64,000 nt of DNA from an uncultured Cocleimonas sp. (GTDB lineage: Bacteria; Pseudomonadota; Gammaproteobacteria; Thiotrichales; Thiotrichaceae): positions 1-64,000 of the forward strand of contig NZ_CANLZW010000015.1 of NCBI RefSeq assembly GCF_947495625.1, read 5' to 3'. How positions within the stretch are numbered: position 1 is the stretch's first letter; each line of letters opens with the position of its first letter. The position numbers and the translations under genes were made by a program. Shown here piece by piece: positions 1 through 63,892 of this stretch. The notes beneath the pieces were generated by a model that did not search any database, was not told the origin of the DNA, and was given only the letters and a program-made list of their open reading frames with translations.

Positions 1-148
1 AAAAACATTGAATGTTAGAACACCGAATGAGGTATTCTACAAAGGAACGAATATTGCATTTAATAGTTGAATTCACCCCCCCCTACTTTAAGGCGGTTTT
101 TCAAAACCTAACTTAACACTGAATGATTAAATTCTGATTAGCTTAAGC
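1..148. other. intergenic segment at window edge
   Basis: No coding sequence is supported here. The segment contains one copy of the dispersed C-rich repeat F1 at 73-101, just past the 3' end of the CBS-domain gene. Confidence 0.5.
73..101 (+). repeat. F1 C-rich dispersed repeat, copy 1
   Basis: TTCAC, a run of eight C, TACTTTAAGGCGG, then a T-run. The C-run is two longer than consensus. It lies downstream of the CBS gene, antisense to it. Confidence 0.9.
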
Positions 149-4983: not shown

Positions 4984-5011
4984 GTCACCCCCCTACTTTT
5001 AGGCCTTTTTT
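4984..5011 (+). repeat. F1 C-rich dispersed repeat, copy 2
   Basis: GTCACCCCCCTACTTTTAGG followed by CC and six T. It lies between the convergent ends of rep and the zinc-ribbon gene. Confidence 0.95.
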
Positions 5012-5722: not shown

Positions 5723-6218
5723 ACTAACTCCTTGTGTATTAATTTTAAAAAATGCACATCCTGCATTTTCGTATTTAAAAATTGATGTATTCGCATATTT
5801 ATTTGTACAGAATAATTAAATCAAAAACTCACTGATATAAACTAATGTGGCTTGGTCTATATCAGCAGACAAACGGTAGTTGTTTTAATGAACCATTTTT
5901 GAAGTTACAAATGTTGTATGTTCTTTGAGCAAGGGTATAAATACTAATAGCTCAGCTCATAATATTTTTTTGCTTTCTTCGCAAAAAATGCGGGGGTCGA
6001 CGACTACATATTCGATACATGAGCTGGCAATAACAAGACATAGAAACTTATTATTCGTCGATAGACTAAGTGGCAGATTACCGTGTCTGGGTTCACTGAA
6101 ATTACATTGTTTAACCATAGCGATAAAACACGATTAAATGAGTTTATGTTTTTATTGAAACACGCGTGTTCTTTACCTATCATTGTGCACCTATGTCCTT
6201 TACTACCCCTTCCCTACA
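5723..6218. other. long intergenic region upstream of smc
   Basis: About 500 bp between divergent genes. No convincing coding sequence, RNA gene or hairpin is seen. It presumably carries the promoter of smc and that of the zinc-ribbon gene. Confidence 0.5.
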
Positions 6219-9200
6219 TTGCGTTTAAGCAAAATAAAAATCGCCGGCTTTAAGTCCTTTGTTGATCCCACAACAATAGACCTGCGCAGCAATTTGACAG
6301 GTATTGTTGGGCCCAATGGTTGTGGCAAATCAAACACCATCGATGCTGTTCGCTGGGTTATGGGTGAAAGCTCGGCAAAACACCTGCGCGGTGCTTCGAT
6401 GGAAGATGTTATTTTTAACGGATCATCTGCGCGAAAACCAATTGGACAAGCTTCCATAGAATTACTCTTTGATAACAGCGATGCGACTTTAGGTGGTGAA
6501 TACGCCCAGTTCTCTGAAATTGGCATAAAACGATTAATTTCAAGAGACGGACAATCTAAATACTTTCTCAATGGCACACGCTGTCGACGCCGTGATATTA
6601 CCGATATTTTCCTCGGTACAGGTCTTGGTCCCAGAAGTTACGCGATTATTGAACAAGGCATGATTTCCCGGCTAATCGAAGCTAAACCCGAAGAGTTAAG
6701 AAACACTCTGGAAGAAGCAGCAGGTATTTCTAAATACAAAGATAGACGCCGTGAAACAGAACGCCGCATAAAAAATACCCGTGAAAACCTTGATCGTCTC
6801 AGTGATTTAAGAGAAGAACTAGAAAAGCAGTTATCACATTTAAATCGACAGGCTAAAGCAGCAGAGAAGTTTAAAACCTTCAAACAGGAAGAACGTCGCG
6901 TCAGTGCAGAATTAATCTTATTACGCTTGAATAAAGTGAAGCAGGATATTCTCACTAGAGAAAATACCATTAACGAAAAAGCCACCTCGCATCAGGCGCA
7001 ACTTTCTGAACAGCGTTCACTAGAAAACCAGATCGAAACTAAACGTGCTGAACACATCGAAGCGAATGAAAACTTCAACACGGTACAAGCTAATTTCTAT
7101 CAAATTGGAGCTGAGATTTCACGCTTAGAGCAAAACATACAACATCAAAAAGAACTCGCTGAAAGGCATCAACGCGAGTTAAATCAAGTCGATAGTGAAA
7201 TAAATGCCGCGAACCTGCATGCCGAAGAAGATCGAAGACAATTCGAACTGGCACAACAGGAATTAGCCACACTGGAACCGCAACTGGCCGAAAAACAGCA
7301 GGCATTTACTGAATCAACAGAAGCGCTGAACGAAGCAGAGTCCAAACTCAGCGAATGGCAGTCTAGCTGGAATTCTTTACAGCAGAAACTCGCTGAACCT
7401 GCACAACAGGCTCAGGTTGAACGTGCTCGTATGGAGCAGTTGGAAAACCAGTTACAACAAGTTGCCAGTCGTTTAATAAAACTGAATACGGATAAAGGTA
7501 TTTTCAATACCGAGTCACATAAAGAAGAGCTAGTTCAACAGCAACAACTACTGACTGAAACAAAGCAAAAATCAACGCAGGTTCAGGAAGAATTTAACCG
7601 CTGCAAAGATGCTTTAAGTGCTCAAATTGAAAACAATAAATCACTGCAAAATAAAATTCAGGAATCGCGTTCTGAGCTACAAGGTTTGAGTGGCAAACTA
7701 TCGTCTCTTGAGGTTTTACAACGCGCTGGTTTAGGTAAAGACAGTAACAACAAAGCCGCCAAAAAGTTAAAGAACTGGTTAGTAGAAAATGGACTCGACG
7801 ATGTTTCACCTTTAGCTGAATCTATTAGTATTGAATCTGGATGGGAGAAAGCATTAGAAACCGTCCTCGGTGATTTACTCCAGTCAAAACCGTTAGAATC
7901 ACAACAACAACTTAAAAAGTTAATGGCAAATGCGCCAGATGTTTCGGCTTCTTTCATTATTAAAAGTGATAATGACACCCCCCCACTTTCAGGCAGTTTT
8001 TCTGATTCGTTTACGGGAAGCCTTGCTGAAAAAGTGACTAAGCCCAGTTACCTGCACACTTTACTAATTAACTTTAAATGCGCAGATTCACTGGAAGATG
8101 CTATTTCAAATCAGCAGTCATTAAAAGCTGGTGAAGTTTTCATCACCAAACAAGGCGTTTTATTAGGATCAAACTGGTTAAAAACACAAGCCAAAGATTC
8201 TGGAAATAAACACGAAGGTGTTTTAGAACGACAGAAACAAATCGATGAAACACTGGCTAAAATTGAAAATACTAAACAGCAATTAAACAGTCATGAAGAT
8301 TCATTAGAAAATGGCCAGCAACAAAGAAAAGCATTAGAAGAACAACAGTCTGAATTACAAACACGTTTGAATGAATTACATCGTGAAGAATCACAGGCAC
8401 AGTCTGTCATTTTCGCCAGTGAAAACCGTATAAAACAAACTGAATCAAACCAGCAACGGGTTCTTGCTGAAGTTGAAGAATTAGAAGTTCAGCAAATGAC
8501 AAATCAAGAGTCTCATCAAAGTGCGACTCTTTTACGCAATCAGGCTTTGTCTCTATTAGAAACGCTAGAGTCTCAAAAAGTGGATATCGAAGGCAAAGAC
8601 GCGCCTTTGGTTGAAGAAGTAAATCGATTAAAAGAACAAACCAGACAACTTGGCAGTGAGACTCAGCAAACTCAAATTAGAGTTGAGAGTTTTAAGACAA
8701 CTCAGACCAGCGCGCAGCAACAGTTGAATCGTCTTGATGAACGTTTAAGTTTATTACAAGAACGAAAAATCCAACTTGTTGAACAGGATAAAACAGCAGA
8801 CAACGATTCAGTCGAAGTTTCAACACAGCAACTAGAAATACAATTAGAAAAACGCAAAGATGTTGAAACCGAATTAGCAAAATCGAGAGATGCATTACAG
8901 CTAATCGATAATACCGTAAGAGAACTGGAACAGAAAAGACATCAGGCTGAGCAGGAAGTTGAACGCTTTAGAACGTTACTTGAAAGCCTAAAAATGGAAT
9001 GGCAGGAAGTCAGTGTTCGCGAGCAAACCTTGCAAGAGCAGTTTGATGAAACCGAGTTTAATCTAGAAGAGCTTTCACAAGAGATAGATGAAAGCATCAC
9101 ACTGGAATCTCATAAGAACTTATTGGAAAGCATACAGACTAAGGTATCAAGACTTGGGGCAATCAACTTAGCAGCGATTGAAGAATTCAAAACCCAAAGT

Positions 9201-9767
9201 GAGCGTAAAATATATCTCGACAAGCAAGATGCGGATCTGATGGAAGCACTTGAAACTTTAGAAACAGCCATTGCCAAAATTGATAAAGACACCAGAAGCC
9301 GCTTTAAAGAAACCTTCGAAAAAGTAAATTCGAGAATTCAGGATATGTTCCCGCAATTATTTGGAGGCGGTAAAGCACACCTTGAAATGACCGGAGACGA
9401 CCTGTTAACGACCGGCATCGCGATTATGGCGCAACCACCGGGCAAACGCATATCTAGTATTCACCTAATGTCTGGTGGTGAAAAAGCCTTAACTGCCGTG
9501 GCGATGGTGTTTGCCATCTTTGAATTGAACCCAGCGCCATTTTGTATGCTAGATGAAGTTGATGCACCGTTAGATGAAGCCAATGTAGGACGTTTTTGCC
9601 AATTAGTGAAAAAGATGTCGGACAGAGTCCAGTTTATTTTCATCACGCATAATAAAACAACGATGGAGCTGGCCGAGAATTTAATCGGTGTCACCATGCG
9701 CGAACCTGGTATTTCCAGATTGGTAAGTGTAGATGTAAATGAAGCATCCAGAATGGTTGAAGAATAA
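6219..9767 (+). CDS. smc: chromosome segregation ATPase SMC
   Basis: Condensin-type SMC that organises and segregates the chromosome. The head N-part opens with RLSKIKIAGFKSF and has Walker A GPNGCGKS (31-38). A long coiled coil, a hinge (roughly residues 490-670), a return coiled coil, signature LMSGGEKA (~1084) and Walker B CMLDEVDAPLD (~1107) follow. The TTG at 6219 is chosen because family members begin M(R)L..IKIAGFKSF; the frame stays open to a TTG at 6183, which would add 12 atypical residues. No good Shine-Dalgarno is visible at either. A dispersed F1 repeat is read in frame in the hinge at about residues 586-595. zipA follows. Confidence 0.95.
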   Translation: MRLSKIKIAGFKSFVDPTTIDLRSNLTGIVGPNGCGKSNTIDAVRWVMGESSAKHLRGASMEDVIFNGSSARKPIGQASIELLFDNSDATLGGEYAQFSEIGIKRLISRDGQSKYFLNGTRCRRRDITDIFLGTGLGPRSYAIIEQGMISRLIEAKPEELRNTLEEAAGISKYKDRRRETERRIKNTRENLDRLSDLREELEKQLSHLNRQAKAAEKFKTFKQEERRVSAELILLRLNKVKQDILTRENTINEKATSHQAQLSEQRSLENQIETKRAEHIEANENFNTVQANFYQIGAEISRLEQNIQHQKELAERHQRELNQVDSEINAANLHAEEDRRQFELAQQELATLEPQLAEKQQAFTESTEALNEAESKLSEWQSSWNSLQQKLAEPAQQAQVERARMEQLENQLQQVASRLIKLNTDKGIFNTESHKEELVQQQQLLTETKQKSTQVQEEFNRCKDALSAQIENNKSLQNKIQESRSELQGLSGKLSSLEVLQRAGLGKDSNNKAAKKLKNWLVENGLDDVSPLAESISIESGWEKALETVLGDLLQSKPLESQQQLKKLMANAPDVSASFIIKSDNDTPPLSGSFSDSFTGSLAEKVTKPSYLHTLLINFKCADSLEDAISNQQSLKAGEVFITKQGVLLGSNWLKTQAKDSGNKHEGVLERQKQIDETLAKIENTKQQLNSHEDSLENGQQQRKALEEQQSELQTRLNELHREESQAQSVIFASENRIKQTESNQQRVLAEVEELEVQQMTNQESHQSATLLRNQALSLLETLESQKVDIEGKDAPLVEEVNRLKEQTRQLGSETQQTQIRVESFKTTQTSAQQQLNRLDERLSLLQERKIQLVEQDKTADNDSVEVSTQQLEIQLEKRKDVETELAKSRDALQLIDNTVRELEQKRHQAEQEVERFRTLLESLKMEWQEVSVREQTLQEQFDETEFNLEELSQEIDESITLESHKNLLESIQTKVSRLGAINLAAIEEFKTQSERKIYLDKQDADLMEALETLETAIAKIDKDTRSRFKETFEKVNSRIQDMFPQLFGGGKAHLEMTGDDLLTTGIAIMAQPPGKRISSIHLMSGGEKALTAVAMVFAIFELNPAPFCMLDEVDAPLDEANVGRFCQLVKKMSDRVQFIFITHNKTTMELAENLIGVTMREPGISRLVSVDVNEASRMVEE
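7974..8001 (+). repeat. F1 repeat inside smc (copy 3)
   Basis: GACACCCCCCCACTTTCAGG followed by CAG and a T-run, read in frame as DTPPLSGSF in the SMC hinge. It carries C where intergenic copies have T in TACTT. Confidence 0.9.
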
Positions 9768-12850: not shown

Positions 12851-12878
12851 GTCACCCCCCTACTTTTAGGCGGTTTTT
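12851..12878 (+). repeat. F1 C-rich dispersed repeat, copy 4
   Basis: GTCACCCCCCTACTTTTAGG followed by CGG and five T; close to the consensus. It sits between the convergent ends of the EamA gene and rluD. Confidence 0.95.
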
Positions 12879-12904: not shown

Positions 12905-13978
12905 TTAATCAGATTTTACAATCTGTAAGCGGTCCACCAAATATTGCATATCTTTTGGCATATCCACTTGCCATGACATTTCTTCTTGGGTGTGTGGATG
13001 CATGATTGTTAGACGCGTTGCATGTAATGCCTGACGATTCATTTTTTGTAATAGTTCGCGTAACTCTTCATCAATATTCGCTGGTACGCGTGATCGCCCA
13101 CCATAAACTCTATCACCCAATATAGGCATATGCTTCCACGCCAGATGCACTCGTATTTGATGAGTTCGACCTGTTTCTAGATTTACTCGAAGCAAGGTGT
13201 GATGGAATAGCTTTTGCTCTACGCGATAATGCGTAATTGCTGTTTTGCCGCCACCGTTCGTCAACACTGTCATCTTTTTTCTATCTTGTGGATGACGACC
13301 TATATTGGCTTCGATGGTATCGCCAGCAATCACTTCTTTGCAAACTAGTGCTAAATATTCTCTTTTAACTTCACGTTCCTGGAGTTGATTAACTAGTGCA
13401 GTATGCGTTTCTAAGGTTTTTGCCACCATCATCAAACCCGTGGTGTCTTTATCTAAACGATGCACGATACCTGCTCTTGGTAAATTCTCTTGTGCTGAAT
13501 TATGTGCAAGCAGTCCATTAACCAGTGTGCCACTCTGGTTACCTGCTCCTGGATGCACTACTAAACCAGCAGGCTTATTAATAACTAATAAATGGTCATC
13601 TTCATAAACTATGTCTAGTTTAATTGCTTCTGGTAAATCATACGTTTGTTGCTGCAATACCGGTGTTACAATGACTTCTTCGCCACCCACGACTTTATCT
13701 CTGACATTACCCGCTTTGTTATTAATCCGAATATCGCCAGATTTAATCCATTTCTGTAATTGGCTACGAGAAAATTGTGGGCAGAGTTCAGCAACTACGC
13801 GATCTAGTCTTTCGCCTAGATATTCTTCTGGAATAGAAAAACATATCTGATCATTTGTGTTCGTACTCATTTCTGGCTGTGTTTCATTATCATTGTCATT
13901 CTCGTTATGATTATTTTGACTATTTTTTTCATTATTACTCATATTCACTGTTATTTTTGACCGCTTCTCTGCAAACAA
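12905..13978 (-). CDS. rluD: 23S rRNA pseudouridine synthase RluD
   Basis: Isomerises uridines of helix 69 of 23S rRNA (1911/1915/1917 in E. coli), needed for ribosome assembly. An Asn-rich disordered N-tail (to ~45) precedes an S4 RNA-binding domain (~52-105: LGERLDRVVAELCPQFSRSQ) and the RluA-type catalytic domain with HRLDKDTTG (173-181, catalytic D176), INKPAGLVVHPG and TGRTHQIRVH. Later in-frame ATGs at residues 13 and 37 are possible true starts, since the tail is not conserved. It is divergent from bamD, as in other gammaproteobacteria. Confidence 0.93.
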   Translation of the reverse strand: MFAEKRSKITVNMSNNEKNSQNNHNENDNDNETQPEMSTNTNDQICFSIPEEYLGERLDRVVAELCPQFSRSQLQKWIKSGDIRINNKAGNVRDKVVGGEEVIVTPVLQQQTYDLPEAIKLDIVYEDDHLLVINKPAGLVVHPGAGNQSGTLVNGLLAHNSAQENLPRAGIVHRLDKDTTGLMMVAKTLETHTALVNQLQEREVKREYLALVCKEVIAGDTIEANIGRHPQDRKKMTVLTNGGGKTAITHYRVEQKLFHHTLLRVNLETGRTHQIRVHLAWKHMPILGDRVYGGRSRVPANIDEELRELLQKMNRQALHATRLTIMHPHTQEEMSWQVDMPKDMQYLVDRLQIVKSD

Positions 13979-16674: not shown

Positions 16675-16703
16675 GACACCCCCGTACTTATAGGCACTTT
16701 TTT
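16675..16703 (+). repeat. F1 C-rich dispersed repeat, copy 5
   Basis: GACACCCCCGTACTTATAGG followed by CAC and a T-run. It shares the CCCCCG variant with copy 19. It lies between the convergent SulP and HAD genes. Confidence 0.9.
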
Positions 16704-17426: not shown

Positions 17427-18521
17427 TTATCTAAGTTGCTCTATTACAGCAGTCAGTTCCTTTGGTAAGTCTATTTTATAATCATAAACCTTACCGCTAC
17501 TATTCAGCTTAAAATTCAAATGATAAGCATGCAAGAAAAGACGTTTCAATCCGATATCTTTTTTCGCCGCACGATTTGCCGCAAAATCACCGTATTGTGA
17601 ATCGCCCATGACTGGGTTACCTAAATCTGCAAGCTGTGTTCTGATTTGATGCATTCGCCCCGTGAGGAGCTCTACTTCCATCAAACTATATTGTTGATAG
17701 AGCTTTATTGGCCTGAAGATACTTTCAGATTCTTTGGCTTTATCTGAATTTTTATCTTTGACGACTCTTACTTTTTGCTTACTGCCACGGTTTCGCTGTA
17801 AATGATTCTTAATATGCTGCTTGCCGCCCTGCCATTTACCCAATATTAACGTCTGGTAGAACTTATTGATTTGTTTCTGCTTAAGCATTTCATGTAATTC
17901 TAAGAGCACCCCCCTACTTTTAGCCAACATTACTATGCCACTGGTTTCTTTATCAAGTCGGTGCACCAGTTCTACAAAGGGTAATTCAGGGCGTAATTGC
18001 CTAAAACTTTCTATAAGACCAAAACGCACACCAGATCCACCGTGAACAGCTAATCCTGAAGATTTATTGATCAATATAATATCGTCATCTTCATGGATTA
18101 TTGACTCTGATAAAGTGTCTAGAAACGATTTAGGGACAGTTTCCTGTTTTTCTTTAACCGGTAAATACACCGGTGGAATTCGAACGATATCCTGATCTTG
18201 TAATTTTAAGGTAGGTTTAGCGCGTTTTTTATTAACCCTGACCTCACCTTTACGCAAAATACGGTAAACGTAAGACCGAGGCGTATCTTTTAATTCTCTT
18301 AATAAGAAATTATCGATACGTTGACCGGCATGAGAAGCATCAATGGTTACAAATCTTACTTTATGCACTAATACGTTTTCAGGCATGGATTTTTTATTAT
18401 CTTGATCAGAAACACGTTTTTTATCGGTCTCTTGTACTTTTTTAGTATTTGCTTCTGATGCTTTTTTCATGGGAGTGAGTTTACACAAGTGATATTTTAA
18501 TTGTTGTGGAAAAACCTCCAT
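17427..18521 (-). CDS. rluC: 23S rRNA pseudouridine synthase RluC
   Basis: Makes pseudouridines 955, 2504 and 2580 (E. coli numbering) in 23S rRNA. A lysine-rich N-tail (~1-50) precedes the S4 domain (~60-115: GQRIDNFLLRELKDTPRSYVYR) and the catalytic domain with HRLDKETSG and TGRMHQIRTQ. Of several in-frame starts, the ATG at residue 18 or 46 could be real. An F1 repeat is read antisense in frame as AKSRGVLL right after the catalytic motif, a place where E. coli RluC reads AKKRSALR, so nothing appears to be inserted. It is divergent from rne, as in enterobacteria. Confidence 0.93.
   Translation of the reverse strand: MEVFPQQLKYHLCKLTPMKKASEANTKKVQETDKKRVSDQDNKKSMPENVLVHKVRFVTIDASHAGQRIDNFLLRELKDTPRSYVYRILRKGEVRVNKKRAKPTLKLQDQDIVRIPPVYLPVKEKQETVPKSFLDTLSESIIHEDDDIILINKSSGLAVHGGSGVRFGLIESFRQLRPELPFVELVHRLDKETSGIVMLAKSRGVLLELHEMLKQKQINKFYQTLILGKWQGGKQHIKNHLQRNRGSKQKVRVVKDKNSDKAKESESIFRPIKLYQQYSLMEVELLTGRMHQIRTQLADLGNPVMGDSQYGDFAANRAAKKDIGLKRLFLHAYHLNFKLNSSGKVYDYKIDLPKELTAVIEQLR
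17906..17925 (+). repeat. F1 repeat core inside rluC (copy 6)
   Basis: GCACCCCCCTACTTTTAGCC matches the F1 core at nearly all positions but lacks the T-tail. It is coding (antisense) in rluC. Confidence 0.85.
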
Positions 18522-25207: not shown

Positions 25208-25237
25208 GTCACCCCCCTACTTTTAGGCACTTTTTTT
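25208..25237 (+). repeat. F1 C-rich dispersed repeat, copy 7
   Basis: GTCACCCCCCTACTTTTAGG followed by CAC and seven T; a full consensus copy. It lies between dcd (3' end) and the DUF6394 gene (5' end). Confidence 0.95.
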
Positions 25238-25917: not shown

Positions 25918-26409
25918 TTACTGGATAATGCTGCTACCGGCGCGATTGAAAGGTATCTTAAACCAAGGTAAATGGATTGATCCACCAAGGTCATAATTTA
26001 CACTTCGATTCCGTAATAAACCTGGCAACATATTCAGCATATTACTAAAACTGAATTGTAATGGAATTTCTAACTTTTGGCTTTGTTTTGCACCAATAGT
26101 GACACGCTCTGATTTATTGCCTTCAGCGACTTGAACACCATTTAGACGTAAACCGTAATCCAGACCAGTTAATGGAATAGCAAAGCTATTTGGATTCTGA
26201 ATATCTAAAACAAAAGTAGCACTACCGCCACTTAGACTGAAATTTCCCATCTCTACTTTGTGTACTTGAATGGTTGGCTGTTCGACAAAGCCTTTGATAC
26301 CACCAGATGAACATGCTGAAAGAAAAGCGGCAAGTACCACGACTAAAAGCTTAGCGTAAATAGACTGGCTAAAAAAGTGGCTATAAGTGGGGGGGTGAGT
26401 TTTTCTCAT
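25918..26409 (-). CDS. LEA-type-2 / WHy-domain lipoprotein
   Basis: 163 residues. The N-terminus encodes a lipoprotein signal (LLVVVLAAFLSAC, Cys ~33), followed by a WHy/LEA-14-like beta-sandwich (~45-150) with FVLDIQNPNSFAIPLTGLDYGLRLNG. Bacterial members are periplasmic and of unknown role. The first ~14 residues (THPPTYSHFF) are encoded by a copy of the F1 repeat, and no later ATG exists upstream of the hydrophobic core. The repeat therefore supplies or extends the start region of the signal peptide. Confidence 0.8.
   Translation of the reverse strand: MRKTHPPTYSHFFSQSIYAKLLVVVLAAFLSACSSGGIKGFVEQPTIQVHKVEMGNFSLSGGSATFVLDIQNPNSFAIPLTGLDYGLRLNGVQVAEGNKSERVTIGAKQSQKLEIPLQFSFSNMLNMLPGLLRNRSVNYDLGGSIHLPWFKIPFNRAGSSIIQ
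26371..26399 (-). repeat. F1 repeat at the start of the lipoprotein gene (copy 8)
   Basis: On the minus strand ACTCACCCCCCCACTTATAG, then CCAC and a T-run, sense to the gene and in frame. It has C in place of the usual T before ACTT. Confidence 0.9.
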
Positions 26410-28540: not shown

Positions 28541-28568
28541 TCACACCCCCCTACTTATAGGCAGTTTT
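28541..28568 (+). repeat. F1 C-rich dispersed repeat, copy 9
   Basis: TCACACCCCCCTACTTATAG followed by GCAG and a short T-run. It lies between the peroxidase gene's 3' end and the DUF1353 gene. Confidence 0.9.
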
Positions 28569-32442: not shown

Positions 32443-32469
32443 CACCCCCCTACTTATAAGGGTTATTTT
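32440..32469 (+). repeat. F1 repeat overlapping the amidohydrolase stop (copy 10)
   Basis: TGACACCCCCCTACTTATAA then GGG and a T-rich tail. The gene's TGA stop is part of the repeat. Confidence 0.9.
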
Positions 32470-38709: not shown

Positions 38710-38734
38710 AAGTAGCTATAAATAGAGGGGTGAC
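38710..38734 (-). repeat. degenerate F1 copy (copy 11)
   Basis: On the minus strand AGTCACCCCTCTATTTATAG, then CTAC and TTT: recognisable but eroded. It lies between recC and the SLC13 gene. Confidence 0.65.
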
Positions 38735-40992: not shown

Positions 40993-41020
40993 GTCACCCC
41001 CCTACTTATGGCTACTTATT
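40993..41020 (+). repeat. F1 C-rich dispersed repeat, copy 12a
   Basis: GTCACCCCCCTACTTATGGC then TACTTATT; the left arm of an inverted pair. Confidence 0.9.
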
Positions 41021-41028
41021 GTCATTTT

Positions 41029-41057
41029 AAAAAAGTGCCTATAAGTAGGGGGGTGAC
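41029..41057 (-). repeat. F1 C-rich dispersed repeat, copy 12b
   Basis: On the minus strand GTCACCCCCCTACTTATAGG followed by CAC and six T; full consensus, opposed to copy 12a. Confidence 0.95.
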
Positions 41058-43901: not shown

Positions 43902-43930
43902 GTCACCCCCCTACTTTTGAGCAGTTTTTT
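43902..43930 (+). repeat. F1 C-rich dispersed repeat, copy 13
   Basis: GTCACCCCCCTACTTTTGAG then CAG and six T. It lies in the tadA-DUF2237 gap. Confidence 0.92.
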
Positions 43931-43940
43931 ATCGATGTGC

Positions 43941-44450
43941 TTATTTGCGGCGCGCTTTAAAAAATGCTCTTAAAATATCACCGCATTCATCACGCATAAT
44001 ACCACCAGTTACATCAACACGGTGATTATGATAATCCTTTGAGAAAAGATCGATTGCACTTCCCGCTGTTCCTGTACGCGGATCCGGTGCACCAAAAATT
44101 AATTGACCAATACGAGCATGAATAATAGCACCCGCACACATCGTACAAGGTTCGAGTGTGACGTAAATTTTGGTATCTGGGATACGGTAGTTATTTAGGA
44201 TTCGCCCCGCTTCACGAATCGCCATAATTTCGGCATGTGCCGTCGCATCGTGAGTTTCAATCGGCCGATTCCAGCCTTCTGCAATCAATTCGCCATCTTT
44301 GACTACCAAAGCACCGACAGGAACCTCACCCTCATCACGAGAGCGTTTTGCCAACATAAGCGCGTGTTTCATCCATTTCTGATGAACAATATCATCTTCA
44401 TCAGAAATAGAGGTCACCCCCCCACTTATAGGCGTTTTTTCAACAGACAT
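43941..44450 (-). CDS. tadA: tRNA adenosine(34) deaminase TadA
   Basis: Deaminates A34 to inosine in tRNA-Arg(ACG). In this 169-residue protein the cytidine-deaminase fold carries HAE (H72, E74) and PCTMC (C102, C105), the zinc site and catalytic Glu. The conserved domain starts near WMKHALMLAKRSRDEGEVPVG (residue ~26). The ~20 residues before it include KTPISGGVTS, encoded by an F1 repeat read antisense. An internal start at M27 is possible but would trim the first helix. Confidence 0.93.
   Translation of the reverse strand: MSVEKTPISGGVTSISDEDDIVHQKWMKHALMLAKRSRDEGEVPVGALVVKDGELIAEGWNRPIETHDATAHAEIMAIREAGRILNNYRIPDTKIYVTLEPCTMCAGAIIHARIGQLIFGAPDPRTGTAGSAIDLFSKDYHNHRVDVTGGIMRDECGDILRAFFKARRK
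44413..44440 (+). repeat. F1 repeat in the 5' end of tadA (copy 14)
   Basis: GTCACCCCCCCACTTATAGG then CG and six T, antisense to tadA and in frame. It has the C-for-T variant shared with copies 3 and 8. Confidence 0.92.
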
Positions 44451-44485
44451 AGAAATAATTTGTGTGTTTTTTACTACTCAGGGTG

Positions 44486-44576
44486 CTTCTAGAGCTTATC
44501 AATTCAAGGCGGGGAAATAGGCGCTTACAAACGTAAGTAACTATTTTCCCAACGCAGAAATGGTAAGTTATAGAAG
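44486..44576. repeat. palindromic 3'-end element P, copy B (after guaA)
   Basis: A roughly 90 bp imperfect palindrome: CTTCTAGAGCTTATCA pairs with TGGTAAGTTATAGAAG, inner GGGGAAATAG with CTATTTTCCC, central CTTAC with GTAAG. It shares TTCAAGGCGGG and CAACGCAGAAATGG with the element after guaB. It ends 19 bp from the guaA stop. Confidence 0.85.
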
Positions 44577-44594
44577 TAGACTGTGGAGTAAAAA

Positions 44595-46172
44595 TTATTC
44601 CCATTCAATGGTAGCTGGTGGCTTTCCTGAGATATCATAAGTCACGCGAGACACATTCTCGATCTCATTAATAATACGATTAGACACATGACCAAGGAAG
44701 TCATAGGGCAAATGTGCCCAACGTGCTGTCATAAAGTCAATGGTCTCAACTGCTCGAAGCGCTATTACATAATCATAGCGACGTCCATCTCCTGTAACAC
44801 CGACAGACTTTACGGGTAAGAACACTGCAAAGGCTTGTGACGTCTTGTGATATAGATCTTGCTTATATAGCTCTTCGATAAAGATATTATCTGCTAGACG
44901 TAGTATATCAGCATACTGCTTTCTCACTTCGCCCAGAATTCGAACCCCTAAACCAGGACCTGGGAAAGGATGGCGACGTACCATCTCTTCGGGTAATCCA
45001 AGCTCAACACCAATGGTTCGAACTTCATCCTTAAACAACTCACGCAGAGGCTCTACCAGACCTAACTTCATATCTTCTGGTAATCCACCAACATTGTGGT
45101 GAGACTTTATCAAATGCGCCTTACCGGTTTTACTGCCAGCAGATTCAATCACATCAGGATAGATGGTTCCCTGTGCTAACCACTTCGCATTAGTCAGTTT
45201 TGAAGATTCTTCATCGAAGATTTCAACAAACAAATTTCCAATGATCTTACGTTTCTCTTCTGGATCAGTTTTACCTTCAAGCGCATCAAGATAACGTTGT
45301 TCTGCATCGACACGAATAACTTTCACACCCATGTGCTCAGCGAACATATCCATCACTTGATCACCTTCGTTTAATCGAAGTAGACCCGTATCAACAAACA
45401 CGCAAGTTAACTGTTTGCCGATCGCTTTGTGCAACATCGCAGCAACTACTGAAGAGTCAACACCACCAGATAAACCAAGAATAACTTCATCGTCGCCGAC
45501 CTGTTTTCTCACATTTTCAATACTATCTTCGATAATATTTAACGGCGTCCATAACTTTGCACAACCACAAATGGTACAGGCAAAGCGTTCTAAAATAGCG
45601 CCACCTTGCTTAGTATGAGTAACTTCTGGATGAAACTGAATGCCGTAGAATTGCTTCTCTTCATTCGCAATACCCGCAATCGGTGCGTTTGATGTACTCG
45701 CCATTAATTTAAACGACTCAGGAATCTCTACCACATGATCACCATGTGACATCCACACATCTAATAAACCATGACCTTCTGCATTCACTTCATCCTGAAT
45801 GTCTTTGAATAGTGCCGTATGACCACGAGCACGAACCTGTGCATAGCCATATTCCTGATGATCAGCTCTTTCGACCTTACCACCAAAATTCATCGCCATA
45901 GTCTGCATGCCGTAACAAATACCTAACACTGGCACACCTAAATCATAAACCGCTTGAGGTGCAACAGGCGCATTCTCAGCAATCGTAGATTCCGGGCCAC
46001 CTGAAAGAATAATGCCCTTCGCACCAAAATCTATCACATCCTGATCGCTAACATCCCAAGGGTAGATTTCACAATACACCCCAACCTCACGAATTCGACG
46101 AGCAATTAACTGGGTGTATTGAGCACCAAAATCGAGAATTAAAATGCGGTCTGTATGAATATTATTGGTCAT
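44595..46172 (-). CDS. guaA: GMP synthase (glutamine-hydrolysing)
   Basis: Converts XMP to GMP using glutamine and ATP, the last step of GMP synthesis. In this 525-residue protein a class I amidotransferase domain (~8-205) carries nucleophile C86 in GICYGMQ and FHPEVTH. An ATP-pyrophosphatase domain (~206-400) has the P-loop LSGGVDSS, and a C-terminal dimerisation domain ends in KPPATIEWE. It lies downstream of guaB on the same strand, with a palindromic element in the 210-bp gap. A guaBA operon is likely. Confidence 0.97.
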
Positions 46173-46280
46173 AGAAAATAGACTTTGTTGAATGAGTTTA
46201 AATCTGTTTTATGTTTAACGAGAAACAGTAAAACACTTAGGGAAATACTAAACAATATTTTCGTAATGTTTAGATTGCTG

Positions 46281-51030: not shown

Positions 51031-51058
51031 GTCACCCCCCTACTTTTAAGTGACTTTT
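51031..51058 (+). repeat. F1 C-rich dispersed repeat, copy 15
   Basis: GTCACCCCCCTACTTTTAAG then TGACTTTT. Its tail merges into the F2 tandem array. Confidence 0.9.
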
Positions 51059-51262
51059 CATTTTGTTATTTAAAATAACCAAAGGAACTTATGCTTTGCG
51101 GAATGATATTACGTTTTTGTTGTTTAAAAACGTAAATAGAATTTATGCTTCGCGAAGTGACTTTTCATTTTGTTATTTAAAATGACCAAAGGAAGTTATG
51201 CTTTGCGGAATGATATTTACGTTATTATTCTTCTAAAACGTAAATAGGATCTATGCAGAGCA
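51050..51262 (+). repeat. F2 tandem duplication (two ~107-bp units)
   Basis: Units start GTGACTTTTCATTTTGTTAT at 51050 and 51157 and are about 85-90% alike by eye. Each has TTATTTAAAAT..C, GCTTTGCGGAATGATATT, an ACGT...ACGT hairpin and AAAACGTAAATAG. GTTATTTAAAATAAC (51065-51079) is palindromic. Unit two ends ATGCAGAGC followed by AAAGGACTTTTTT. Confidence 0.88.
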
Positions 51263-51385
51263 AAGGACTTTTTTGCATTTGTTTAAATACACAAAGTGAT
51301 GATACCCTCAATGAAACTTTTAATAATCAAAAATGAACACTAACAATAATTAAAAACAACCATTGGGGACGCTGGGGAGCAAACA

Positions 51386-54656: not shown

Positions 54657-54685
54657 GTCACCCCCCTACTTTTGATGCTATTTTT
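54657..54685 (+). repeat. F1 C-rich dispersed repeat, copy 16
   Basis: GTCACCCCCCTACTTTTGAT then GCTA and five T; it lies between the hypothetical gene's 3' end and the MBL-fold gene. Confidence 0.92.
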
Positions 54686-54702
54686 GTTAACGGTTTAAAT
54701 AA

Positions 54703-55131
54703 CTAAACTTTTCCAGAATAGTTAATGGTAAATACATTCGACTGTACTTTTCCTTCGTAGCTCATATCATATTCTTGCATCAGTAATTTGGTCACATCTT
54801 TAGCCACATTTTCCTGAATCATACTCAAGGATAAATGTGCATCAAAATAAGCAAGCGCAAAACACAGTGAGAAATTAATTTTCTCGTCTATATCGCGACT
54901 ATTATAATCATCTAAAAAAGATTCTTTTACAGATGCTTGCGCGTGTTTTATAAAGTTTGAATCCTGAATATCCCTATTTTCGCAGGCCTTGACGGTAGCA
55001 ATTTCTATTAACTGTTCTTTTTGCTTGTCGCTTGGAAAGGGATTGTTTTGTTTTAGCTCATCCCAGGCAAGTATCAATGCTTGATAGGCTTCATCAGCCC
55101 ATTGTTTGTTGTTTTGCGGATAACTTTTCAT
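54703..55131 (-). CDS. hypothetical protein, 142 residues
   Basis: Not recognised. Soluble, mostly helical by composition, with a Trp near the start and an acidic middle; no signal peptide, Cys pair or known motif. Both flanks carry F1 repeats within about 30 bp of its ends. Codon use looks like its neighbours and the frame is long and intact, so it is probably a real gene. Confidence 0.7.
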   Translation of the reverse strand: MKSYPQNNKQWADEAYQALILAWDELKQNNPFPSDKQKEQLIEIATVKACENRDIQDSNFIKHAQASVKESFLDDYNSRDIDEKINFSLCFALAYFDAHLSLSMIQENVAKDVTKLLMQEYDMSYEGKVQSNVFTINYSGKV

Positions 55132-55159
55132 AGTTTTCAGTCAGTAGGGGAATGAATAA

Positions 55160-55187
55160 GTCACCCCCCTACTTATAGGGTGTTTTT
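55160..55187 (+). repeat. F1 C-rich dispersed repeat, copy 17
   Basis: GTCACCCCCCTACTTATAGG then GTG and five T. An AGTAGGGG stretch at 55143-55150 could pair with its core. It lies between gltX and the hypothetical gene. Confidence 0.92.
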
Positions 55188-56749: not shown

Positions 56750-56778
56750 GTCACCCCCCTACTTTTAGGCTCTTTTTT
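56750..56778 (+). repeat. F1 C-rich dispersed repeat, copy 18
   Basis: GTCACCCCCCTACTTTTAGG then CTC and six T. It lies in the divergent gltX/DUF808 gap, so it is upstream of both genes. Confidence 0.95.
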
Positions 56779-61833: not shown

Positions 61834-61862
61834 AAAAAAGTGCCTATAAGTACGGGGGTGAC
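61834..61862 (-). repeat. F1 C-rich dispersed repeat, copy 19
   Basis: Minus strand GTCACCCCCGTACTTATAGG then CAC and six T. It shares the G variant with copy 5. Confidence 0.93.
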
Positions 61863-62550: not shown

Positions 62551-62580
62551 AAAAAACCTGCTATAAGTAGGGGGGGGGTC
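62551..62580 (-). repeat. F1 C-rich dispersed repeat, copy 20
   Basis: Minus strand GA, nine C, TACTTATAGCAGG and six T: the longest C-run of the set. It follows the isomerase stop. Confidence 0.88.
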
Positions 62581-62766: not shown

Positions 62767-63795
<1,029 letters not shown>

Positions 63796-63827
63796 TTAAA
63801 GTATATTACTTTGATAATTAAATAACG

Positions 63828-63849
63828 TTAATTAGTTCTTTCTAATTAA
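63828..63849. promoter_or_regulatory. stem-loop in the ilvH-ilvC gap
   Basis: TTAATTAG-TTCTTT-CTAATTAA, perfect 8-bp arms, 45 bp before the ilvC ATG. It is AT-rich and could be a processing or regulatory site. Confidence 0.4.
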
Positions 63850-63892
63850 TCAGTTATGTTCTTTATTTAATGCAGTTTAAAAAGTTATAAAA

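Follow-up and report, generated by a model that had tools for sequence, protein, structure and literature searches.

A genus-specific repeated motif of Cocleimonas, apparently written into rluC by substitution and oriented with replication toward the terminus

The uptake sequence of the Pasteurellaceae (USS) is a long motif with AT tracts, and REPs, which are mobile repeats, contain GTAG. Excerpts from the literature describe the USS as occurring in hundreds of copies, with inverted pairs, two dialects and fewer copies in coding sequence (PMC7811141, PMC12616744). For the Neisseriaceae uptake sequence (DUS), the source passage describes species dialects and many inverted pairs (PMC3630211), and passages of two of these papers give dialects, inverted pairs and coding under-representation as traits of uptake sequences (PMC7811141, PMC3630211). 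AIMS are octamers on leading strands, with bias and abundance rising toward the terminus, in the relevant portion of PMC5993296. As far as these excerpts extend, self-specific uptake sequences have been reported from two bacterial families, and polarity signals are short octamers of mostly unknown function. No open-licence PMC paper on a DNA uptake sequence in the Thiotrichales was found, and no title on such a motif appeared among the listed open-licence PMC papers on Cocleimonas, polar uptake sequences or Leucothrix mucor competence. The motif described here, F1, is repeated throughout the DNA of several Cocleimonas species, including a 64,000-nucleotide stretch (the window; genome handle G000).

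One copy of F1 lies within rluC, a 364-aa ORF on the minus strand (17427..18521) that encodes an RluC-family 23S rRNA pseudouridine synthase. The top NCBIfam match of this ORF is RluC, at 298 bits, which is under the curated cut-off of 378; the ORF is over the RluA-subfamily cut-off and matches the RluC structure in the PDB at 1.4e-46. Among named relatives, Cocleimonas flava DSM 24830 (G003) is the nearest, with an RluC that is 84% identical. The F1 core, AAGTAGGGGGGTG, occupies 17907..17919 on the minus strand and covers the codons K-S-R-G-V. The window letters at 17907-17925, CACCCCCCTACTTTTAGCC, have one mismatch to the 19-base F1 consensus, a sequence that has 17 matches in the window at up to 3 mismatches; 100 dinucleotide shuffles had 0.00 on average. 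The rluC copy consists of the core alone and lacks the A5 tract and the GCC that flank most F1 copies. An earlier note on this DNA had claimed that 19-20 bases of F1 are read antisense as AKSRGVLL, and the window letters and the ORF bear this out, with IVML separating HRLDKETSG from A-K-S-R-G-V-L-L. A second pseudouridine synthase, over the RluD cut-off, is encoded at 12905-13978, and a further F1 copy (12853) occupies the adjoining gap.

A close orthologue of rluC is present in eight of the 12 genus genomes (G002, G006, G009 and G010 are without one), and five of the eight (G000, G003, G011, G008 and G004) have the F1 core at the same codons. All five carriers spell K-S-R-G-V as AAA AGT AGG GGG GTG. 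The remaining three (G007, G005 and G001) read AKNRQ(T/A)L in the same columns with no gap, using AAA, AAC or AAT, AGG or CGT, CAG or CAA, and ACT, ACC or GCA. Each codon difference of the carriers from these three (at AGT, AGG, GGG and GTG) creates F1. A clean deletion of 20-30 bp, which by the earlier note would have refuted an origin in place, is seen in none of the three. PDB 1xpi_A, which is deposited under the name pseudouridine synthase C and is taken here to be E. coli RluC, reads AKKRSALR at the site, also ungapped, as the earlier note had stated. Because the motif-less orthologues are ungapped, the difference in rluC arose in place, by substitution.

The codons themselves are also conserved. 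Among 150 residues shared by the five carriers (M and W excluded; one carrier gene is partial), 18% keep a single codon, while all five motif codons are invariant and form the sole run of five identical codons in rluC. This indicates that the DNA, and not just the protein, has been held constant at this site. In an unrooted rluC tree the five carriers fall on one side and the three motif-less orthologues on the other. A single gain is the simplest reading, the direction of change being read from the unrooted tree, with a single loss as the less simple alternative. Judged from the sequences, the rluC copy is best described as one member of a genus-specific DNA tag, written in by substitution and maintained at the DNA level.

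Other coding copies show the same pattern. Motif-less orthologues of at least 56% identity allowed six comparisons, consisting of the three for rluC, one for FabD (G003 versus G005), one for a P60-like protein (G003 versus G004) and one for the window gene at 6183-9767 (versus G011). Five of the six are ungapped over the 21 residues around the site, and the sixth, that of the window gene, has a one-residue gap. The 20-30 bp deletion is absent from all six. In G003 the copies within FabD and the P60-like gene have the form AAGTGGGGGGGTG, and coding copies in general are spread over both strands and several frames. The earlier note had proposed that the motif was built by substitution in place, as uptake sequences are. 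The in-place part of this statement stands; the likeness to uptake sequences is an unproven analogy, and two properties of F1, replication polarity and strong exclusion from genes, are unlike a Pasteurellaceae uptake sequence.

The 4.6-Mb genome contains 777 exact copies of the 13-mer AAGTAGGGGGGTG (G-rich strand), of which 343 are forward and 434 reverse, and no copy of the reversed control. The consensus of 93 copies is AAAAA-nn-GCCTATAAGTAGGGGGGTGACTTTT, about 32 bp in length, and 88 of 93 copies of the exact 13-mer are intergenic. With genes called by a simple longest-ORF script rather than taken from annotation, 28 of 224 copies in G003 and 15 of 113 in G000 fall in genes, leaving about 87% outside them. 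A tolerant form of the F1 pattern finds 930, 896, 662, 626, 327 and 240 copies in six genus genomes, 25 in G002, 13 in G009 and 0-4 in the other four. The same pattern occurs 0-6 times per genome in 51 genomes from other genera of the family, and its controls 0-4 times. The copies are locally dense on contig C2 of G000, where 23 exact copies lie within 52 kb (80-132 kb) in a single orientation, mostly one to few ORFs apart. Six viral contigs (L247-L252) carry exact AAGTAGGGGGGTGAC.

F1-type 10-mers are the most over-represented in six of eight sampled species, and the motif differs among them in a consistent way. G000 and G003 have GGTGAC where G004, G008 and G011 have GGTGTC. The G007 dialect is AAGTGGGGGG..TGTAC (GTGGGGGG..TGTAC), and that of G002 and G009 is mostly GGATG (AAGTRGGGGGATG). 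These dialects group like the rluC tree, which is unrooted and represents one gene in eight species.

Within the window, intergenic cores with a counterpart in G003 are found on the minus strand at 4986..4998, 12853..12865, 25210..25222, 28544..28556, 32443..32455, 43904..43916 and 56752..56764, and on the plus strand, with one mismatch, at 61848..61860. Further intergenic cores are at 16677..16689 (minus, one mismatch), 38720..38732 (plus, two mismatches) and 62565..62577 (plus, one mismatch), and another with one mismatch is at 76..88 (minus). Three more, each with one mismatch, are associated with genes. The first (7976..7988, minus) is in gene 6183-9767 and is also present in G003; the second (26385..26397, plus) is at the 5' end of gene 25918-26409 and has a G003 counterpart; the third (44415..44427, minus) is near the 5' end of gene 43941-44450. 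The core at 51033..51045 (minus) is directly followed by hairpin repeats of a second family, F2 (51040-51265 in the window, with loci on G000 C1, G000 C2 and G003). F2 consists of a hairpin of ~35 bp and then GAAYTTATGC, sometimes in tandem with a spacing of 53-55 bp. Of 36 signature matches, 25 place it directly after (T/C)ACTT, the end of F1, as if inserted there. The window also contains a 9-bp tandem repeat, TTCTATGTG, in four overlapping 18-nt copies (2617-2661).

Cores also occur as inverted pairs 41-48 bp apart. The pair in the window has its left half at 40995..41007 (minus) and its right half at 41043..41055 (plus), is without a G003 counterpart, and folds into a hairpin of -43.6 kcal/mol (z -9.4). 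Five others lie on the dnaA stretch of G000 C1 (13455/13497, 32601/32642, 59714/59756, 69605/69647 and 120309/120350), and none were found among the exact copies in 140 kb of G000 C2. The three inverted pairs that were folded form strong hairpins. A single F1 unit folds no better than its shuffles (five sequences, z -1.2 to +0.8).

Gene order in the window is common to G003, with 47 of 49 called ORFs matched in the same order, and the F1 sites are largely retained. Of 121 orthologous intergenic gaps compared between G000 and G003, 38 (about one third) have an F1 site in at least one species. The set of sites and their orientation are identical in 33 of the 38, differ in three, and are found in G000 only in two. 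In both of the latter G003 has a decayed site rather than an empty one. One of the differing gaps, near 222.5 kb on G000 C1, has an extra F1 site together with extra DNA in one species, which may reflect an insertion or a deletion. Per-position identity in 31 single-site gaps is about 45-50% in the flanks and 94-100% in the A5 tract (-13 to -9), which was not used for selecting sites in this comparison.

The orientation of F1 follows replication in the terminus-ward part of the chromosome, and hardly does so near the origin. In G003, dnaA is at 969 kb on C1, and C2 carries at 116,877 a dif-like site, with two mismatches to the dif consensus. Orientation was counted in 79 windows of 20 kb, with one masked window excluded. 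On one side of dnaA, out to 600 kb (27 windows), the G-rich strand of F1 is leading in 67 of 114 copies (67:47), and between the dif-like site and the distal end of C2 (34 windows) in 116 of 135 (116:19). The leading-strand fraction thus rises from 0.59 near dnaA to 0.86 terminus-ward (Fisher, 1.5e-6). Beyond dif the ratio is 13:7 in the new sense, and on the opposite side of dnaA (7 windows) it is 13:13, without polarity. Total density is flat, at 4.2 copies per 20 kb near the origin and 4.0 terminus-ward, and leading-strand copies number 2.5 and 3.4 per 20 kb, respectively. These distances assume that the left end of G003 C1 joins the right end of C2. However, each contig has its own landmark (dnaA on C1, the dif-like site on C2), so the contrast between origin and terminus is independent of the assumed join. 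In G000, the dnaA stretch is weakly polar (28:15), and the other two stretches are strongly so (34:3 and 12:1).

Neither base composition nor gene direction accounts for this pattern. GC skew was rejected as the cause, as a rough (G/C)^8 expectation computed from intergenic DNA gives ratios of 2.56 toward the origin and 1.83 toward the terminus, compared with observed ratios of 1.4 and 6.1. Gene direction does not explain F1 orientation either (rank correlation 0.13, P 0.30). A summary by skew sign alone gives 143 in agreement and 63 in disagreement; it is blurred because origin-proximal windows have skew and hardly any polarity, a contrast that distance from dnaA and dif resolves. When each window is scored by its skew sign, F1 in G003 is 174:77 overall, 93:23 terminus-ward and 48:40 near dnaA. 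The same scoring of the USS in one USS-rich Pasteurellaceae genome gives 101:112, with no polarity, and in this control 135 of 213 sites (63%) are in genes; an H. ducreyi genome was too USS-poor to serve as control. Two Chi-like sequences, GCTGGTGG (12:23) and GNTGGTGG (76:64), show no such polarity.

These observations raise the possibility that F1 is chiefly a mark of chromosome polarity, an unusually long AIMS- or KOPS-like site that a directional DNA translocase or loader would recognise, with no part in uptake. Of the rivals to the reading ranked first, in which F1 is a tag of the uptake type with a filter for polarity, this is the main one, and we regard it as a serious though clearly less probable account. 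It is favored by the 86% leading-strand bias terminus-ward, its turn near the dif-like site and its weakness near dnaA, and by the failure of local GC skew to predict orientation. It is further consistent with the copies that run mostly one way on G000 C2 (48 of the 53 exact ones listed, and 34 of 37 over the 140 kb stretch) and in the window (12 of 13), and with masked hexa-G runs, which show a similar though weaker trend (29:12 toward the terminus, 3:9 toward the origin). Against it, density does not change from origin to terminus, and the weakly polar sites of the dnaA contig are also kept (13 of 16 gaps unchanged, compared with 20 of 22 elsewhere). In addition, the canonical KOPS GGGNAGGG is already present and is polar by itself (18:2), a 32-bp consensus far exceeds the octamers that define AIMS, and inverted pairs would give no net direction. 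A specific version, about equally probable, would make F1 a dedicated orientation code of ~32 bp, built by substitution even within genes, whose putative reader protein moves or loads from the origin to dif. If this were true, F1 would exceed in length every code of this kind that we know, and its dialects would evolve because the reader evolves. As F1 is equally dense near the origin and is retained there too, despite having hardly any direction there, maintenance of the sites need not involve reading of direction. Direction is, in our reading, an extra layer nearer the terminus, added to the maintenance of the sites.

A role as a boundary for the exchange of gene segments, by site-specific or homologous recombination between copies, appears improbable. 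Four of ten differences in gene content between G000 and G003 do have equally oriented F1-type sites in the longer form and one fewer in the other species, and at G000 C2:84027/85791 (C2:84027-85803, in L096, versus L200:9438) the homologous flanks overlap exactly in the 13-mer. In the window, the cores at 54659..54671 and 55162..55174 (both minus) form the two edges of an ORF unmatched in the G003 stretch; the other species has a single F1 in place of this segment (54659-55174) and its equally oriented flanking copies. However, with F1 in about a third of the compared gaps (38 of 121), some of this association is expected. No recombinase is tied to F1, and nearly all copies in the window lie within gene order common to G003. 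A separate observation concerns exchange between the two species, whose genomes share 30 tracts of at least 98% identity on a background of about 80%; those in the window are at 44308-46253 and 63565-63880, and others are on G000 C1 and C2. From their sequence, these tracts are probably the result of recent interspecies exchange or recombination. They are not nearer to F1 than expected by chance, with 13 of 30 within 200 bp compared with 10.6 expected (P 0.20).

It is very unlikely that F1 is a mobile repeat, such as a REP with RAYT or a MITE, that spread by transposition. The motif resembles one in its hundreds of copies, in being intergenic in 88 of 93 exact copies, in occurring partly as inverted pairs and in containing GTAG. 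However, the coding comparisons are ungapped in five of six cases and differ by one residue in the sixth, the single unit has no better-than-shuffle fold, and both gaps with a site in G000 only are decayed, not empty, in G003. A RAYT or REP origin was rejected after a Y1_Tnp search of the 12 genus genomes. Matches were found in G000 and in all six genomes with few or no F1, and in none of the other five of the six F1-bearing genomes (G003, G004, G007, G008 and G011), though these are rich in the motif. The earlier claim that F1 in rluC did not arise by transposition is thereby further favored.

Least probable of all is an RNA element or transcription terminator: the inverted pairs do fold into strong hairpins, and convergent genes flank 28 of the 86 intergenic G000 copies for which both neighbours are known (compared with 37 of 213 gaps of at least 60 bp in a G003 stretch), but orientation tracks replication and not gene direction, 12 of the 86 are between divergent genes, single copies have no significant fold, and Rfam has no match in the window.

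The account that we prefer, to which we give roughly an even chance, is that F1 is a self tag of the uptake type, with a further constraint that orients it toward dif. In its favor are the coding copies made in place, the dialects, the inverted pairs with their strong hairpins, the retention of sites in 33 of 38 gaps, the tracts exchanged between species and the wide presence of ComEC; against it are the lack of polarity and the many genic sites of the USS control, and the high-identity tracts being no closer to F1 than chance. The substitutions that wrote F1 into rluC would most simply have occurred in an ancestor of the five carrier species. DNA bearing F1 would be preferentially taken up or recombined, near-matches would be drawn to the F1 consensus in all places that genes permit, and every lineage would drift to its own dialect. 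A second constraint would act nearer the terminus, where the observed bias suggests that copies whose G-rich strand runs against the direction from origin to dif may be removed by selection, as for AIMS and KOPS. Two candidates for a recogniser that covaries with F1 were considered and rejected. ComEC is present in 11 of the 12 genus genomes, whether or not they carry F1, and was unmatched in the F1-rich G004 (89% complete); minor pilins of the GspH/FimT type also occur in species without F1. As both are present with and without the motif, no co-varying recogniser was found among them. The genus includes a named, culturable member, Cocleimonas flava, which is not known to us to be pathogenic, and species with F1, with another dialect or with nearly none. 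This variation offers a way to find out whether uptake, segregation or both maintain such tags, and to identify the protein that reads them.

Compared with REP/RAYT elements, F1 is likewise multicopy, intergenic and GTAG-containing, but it leaves no insertion footprint in genes, is without a Y1_Tnp match in five F1-bearing genomes and has no fold as a single unit. The similarity to the USS lies in layout, as the extended Hin-USS given in the excerpted text of PMC12616744, AAAGTGCGGTCAATTTT, resembles F1 (AAAGTRGGGGGG..TGACTTTT). The two differ in the G6 run of F1, in the proportion of copies in genes (about 13%, compared with 63% in the Pasteurellaceae control genome) and in replication polarity, which is present for F1 and absent from that one control genome; a lack of polarity is no part of the uptake-sequence definitions in the excerpts. 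Species dialects and inverted pairs are shared with the DUS as described in the passage cited (PMC3630211), although uptake motifs of this type reach about 13 nt in the excerpt of PMC12616744 and the F1 consensus is about 32 bp. Like the AIMS and KOPS of the excerpted descriptions, F1 is G-rich (as is KOPS) and leading-strand biased, with a bias that grows toward the terminus; unlike them, it is longer, flat in total density, mostly intergenic and fixed in position. F1 therefore joins traits of uptake sequences with those of polarity signals.
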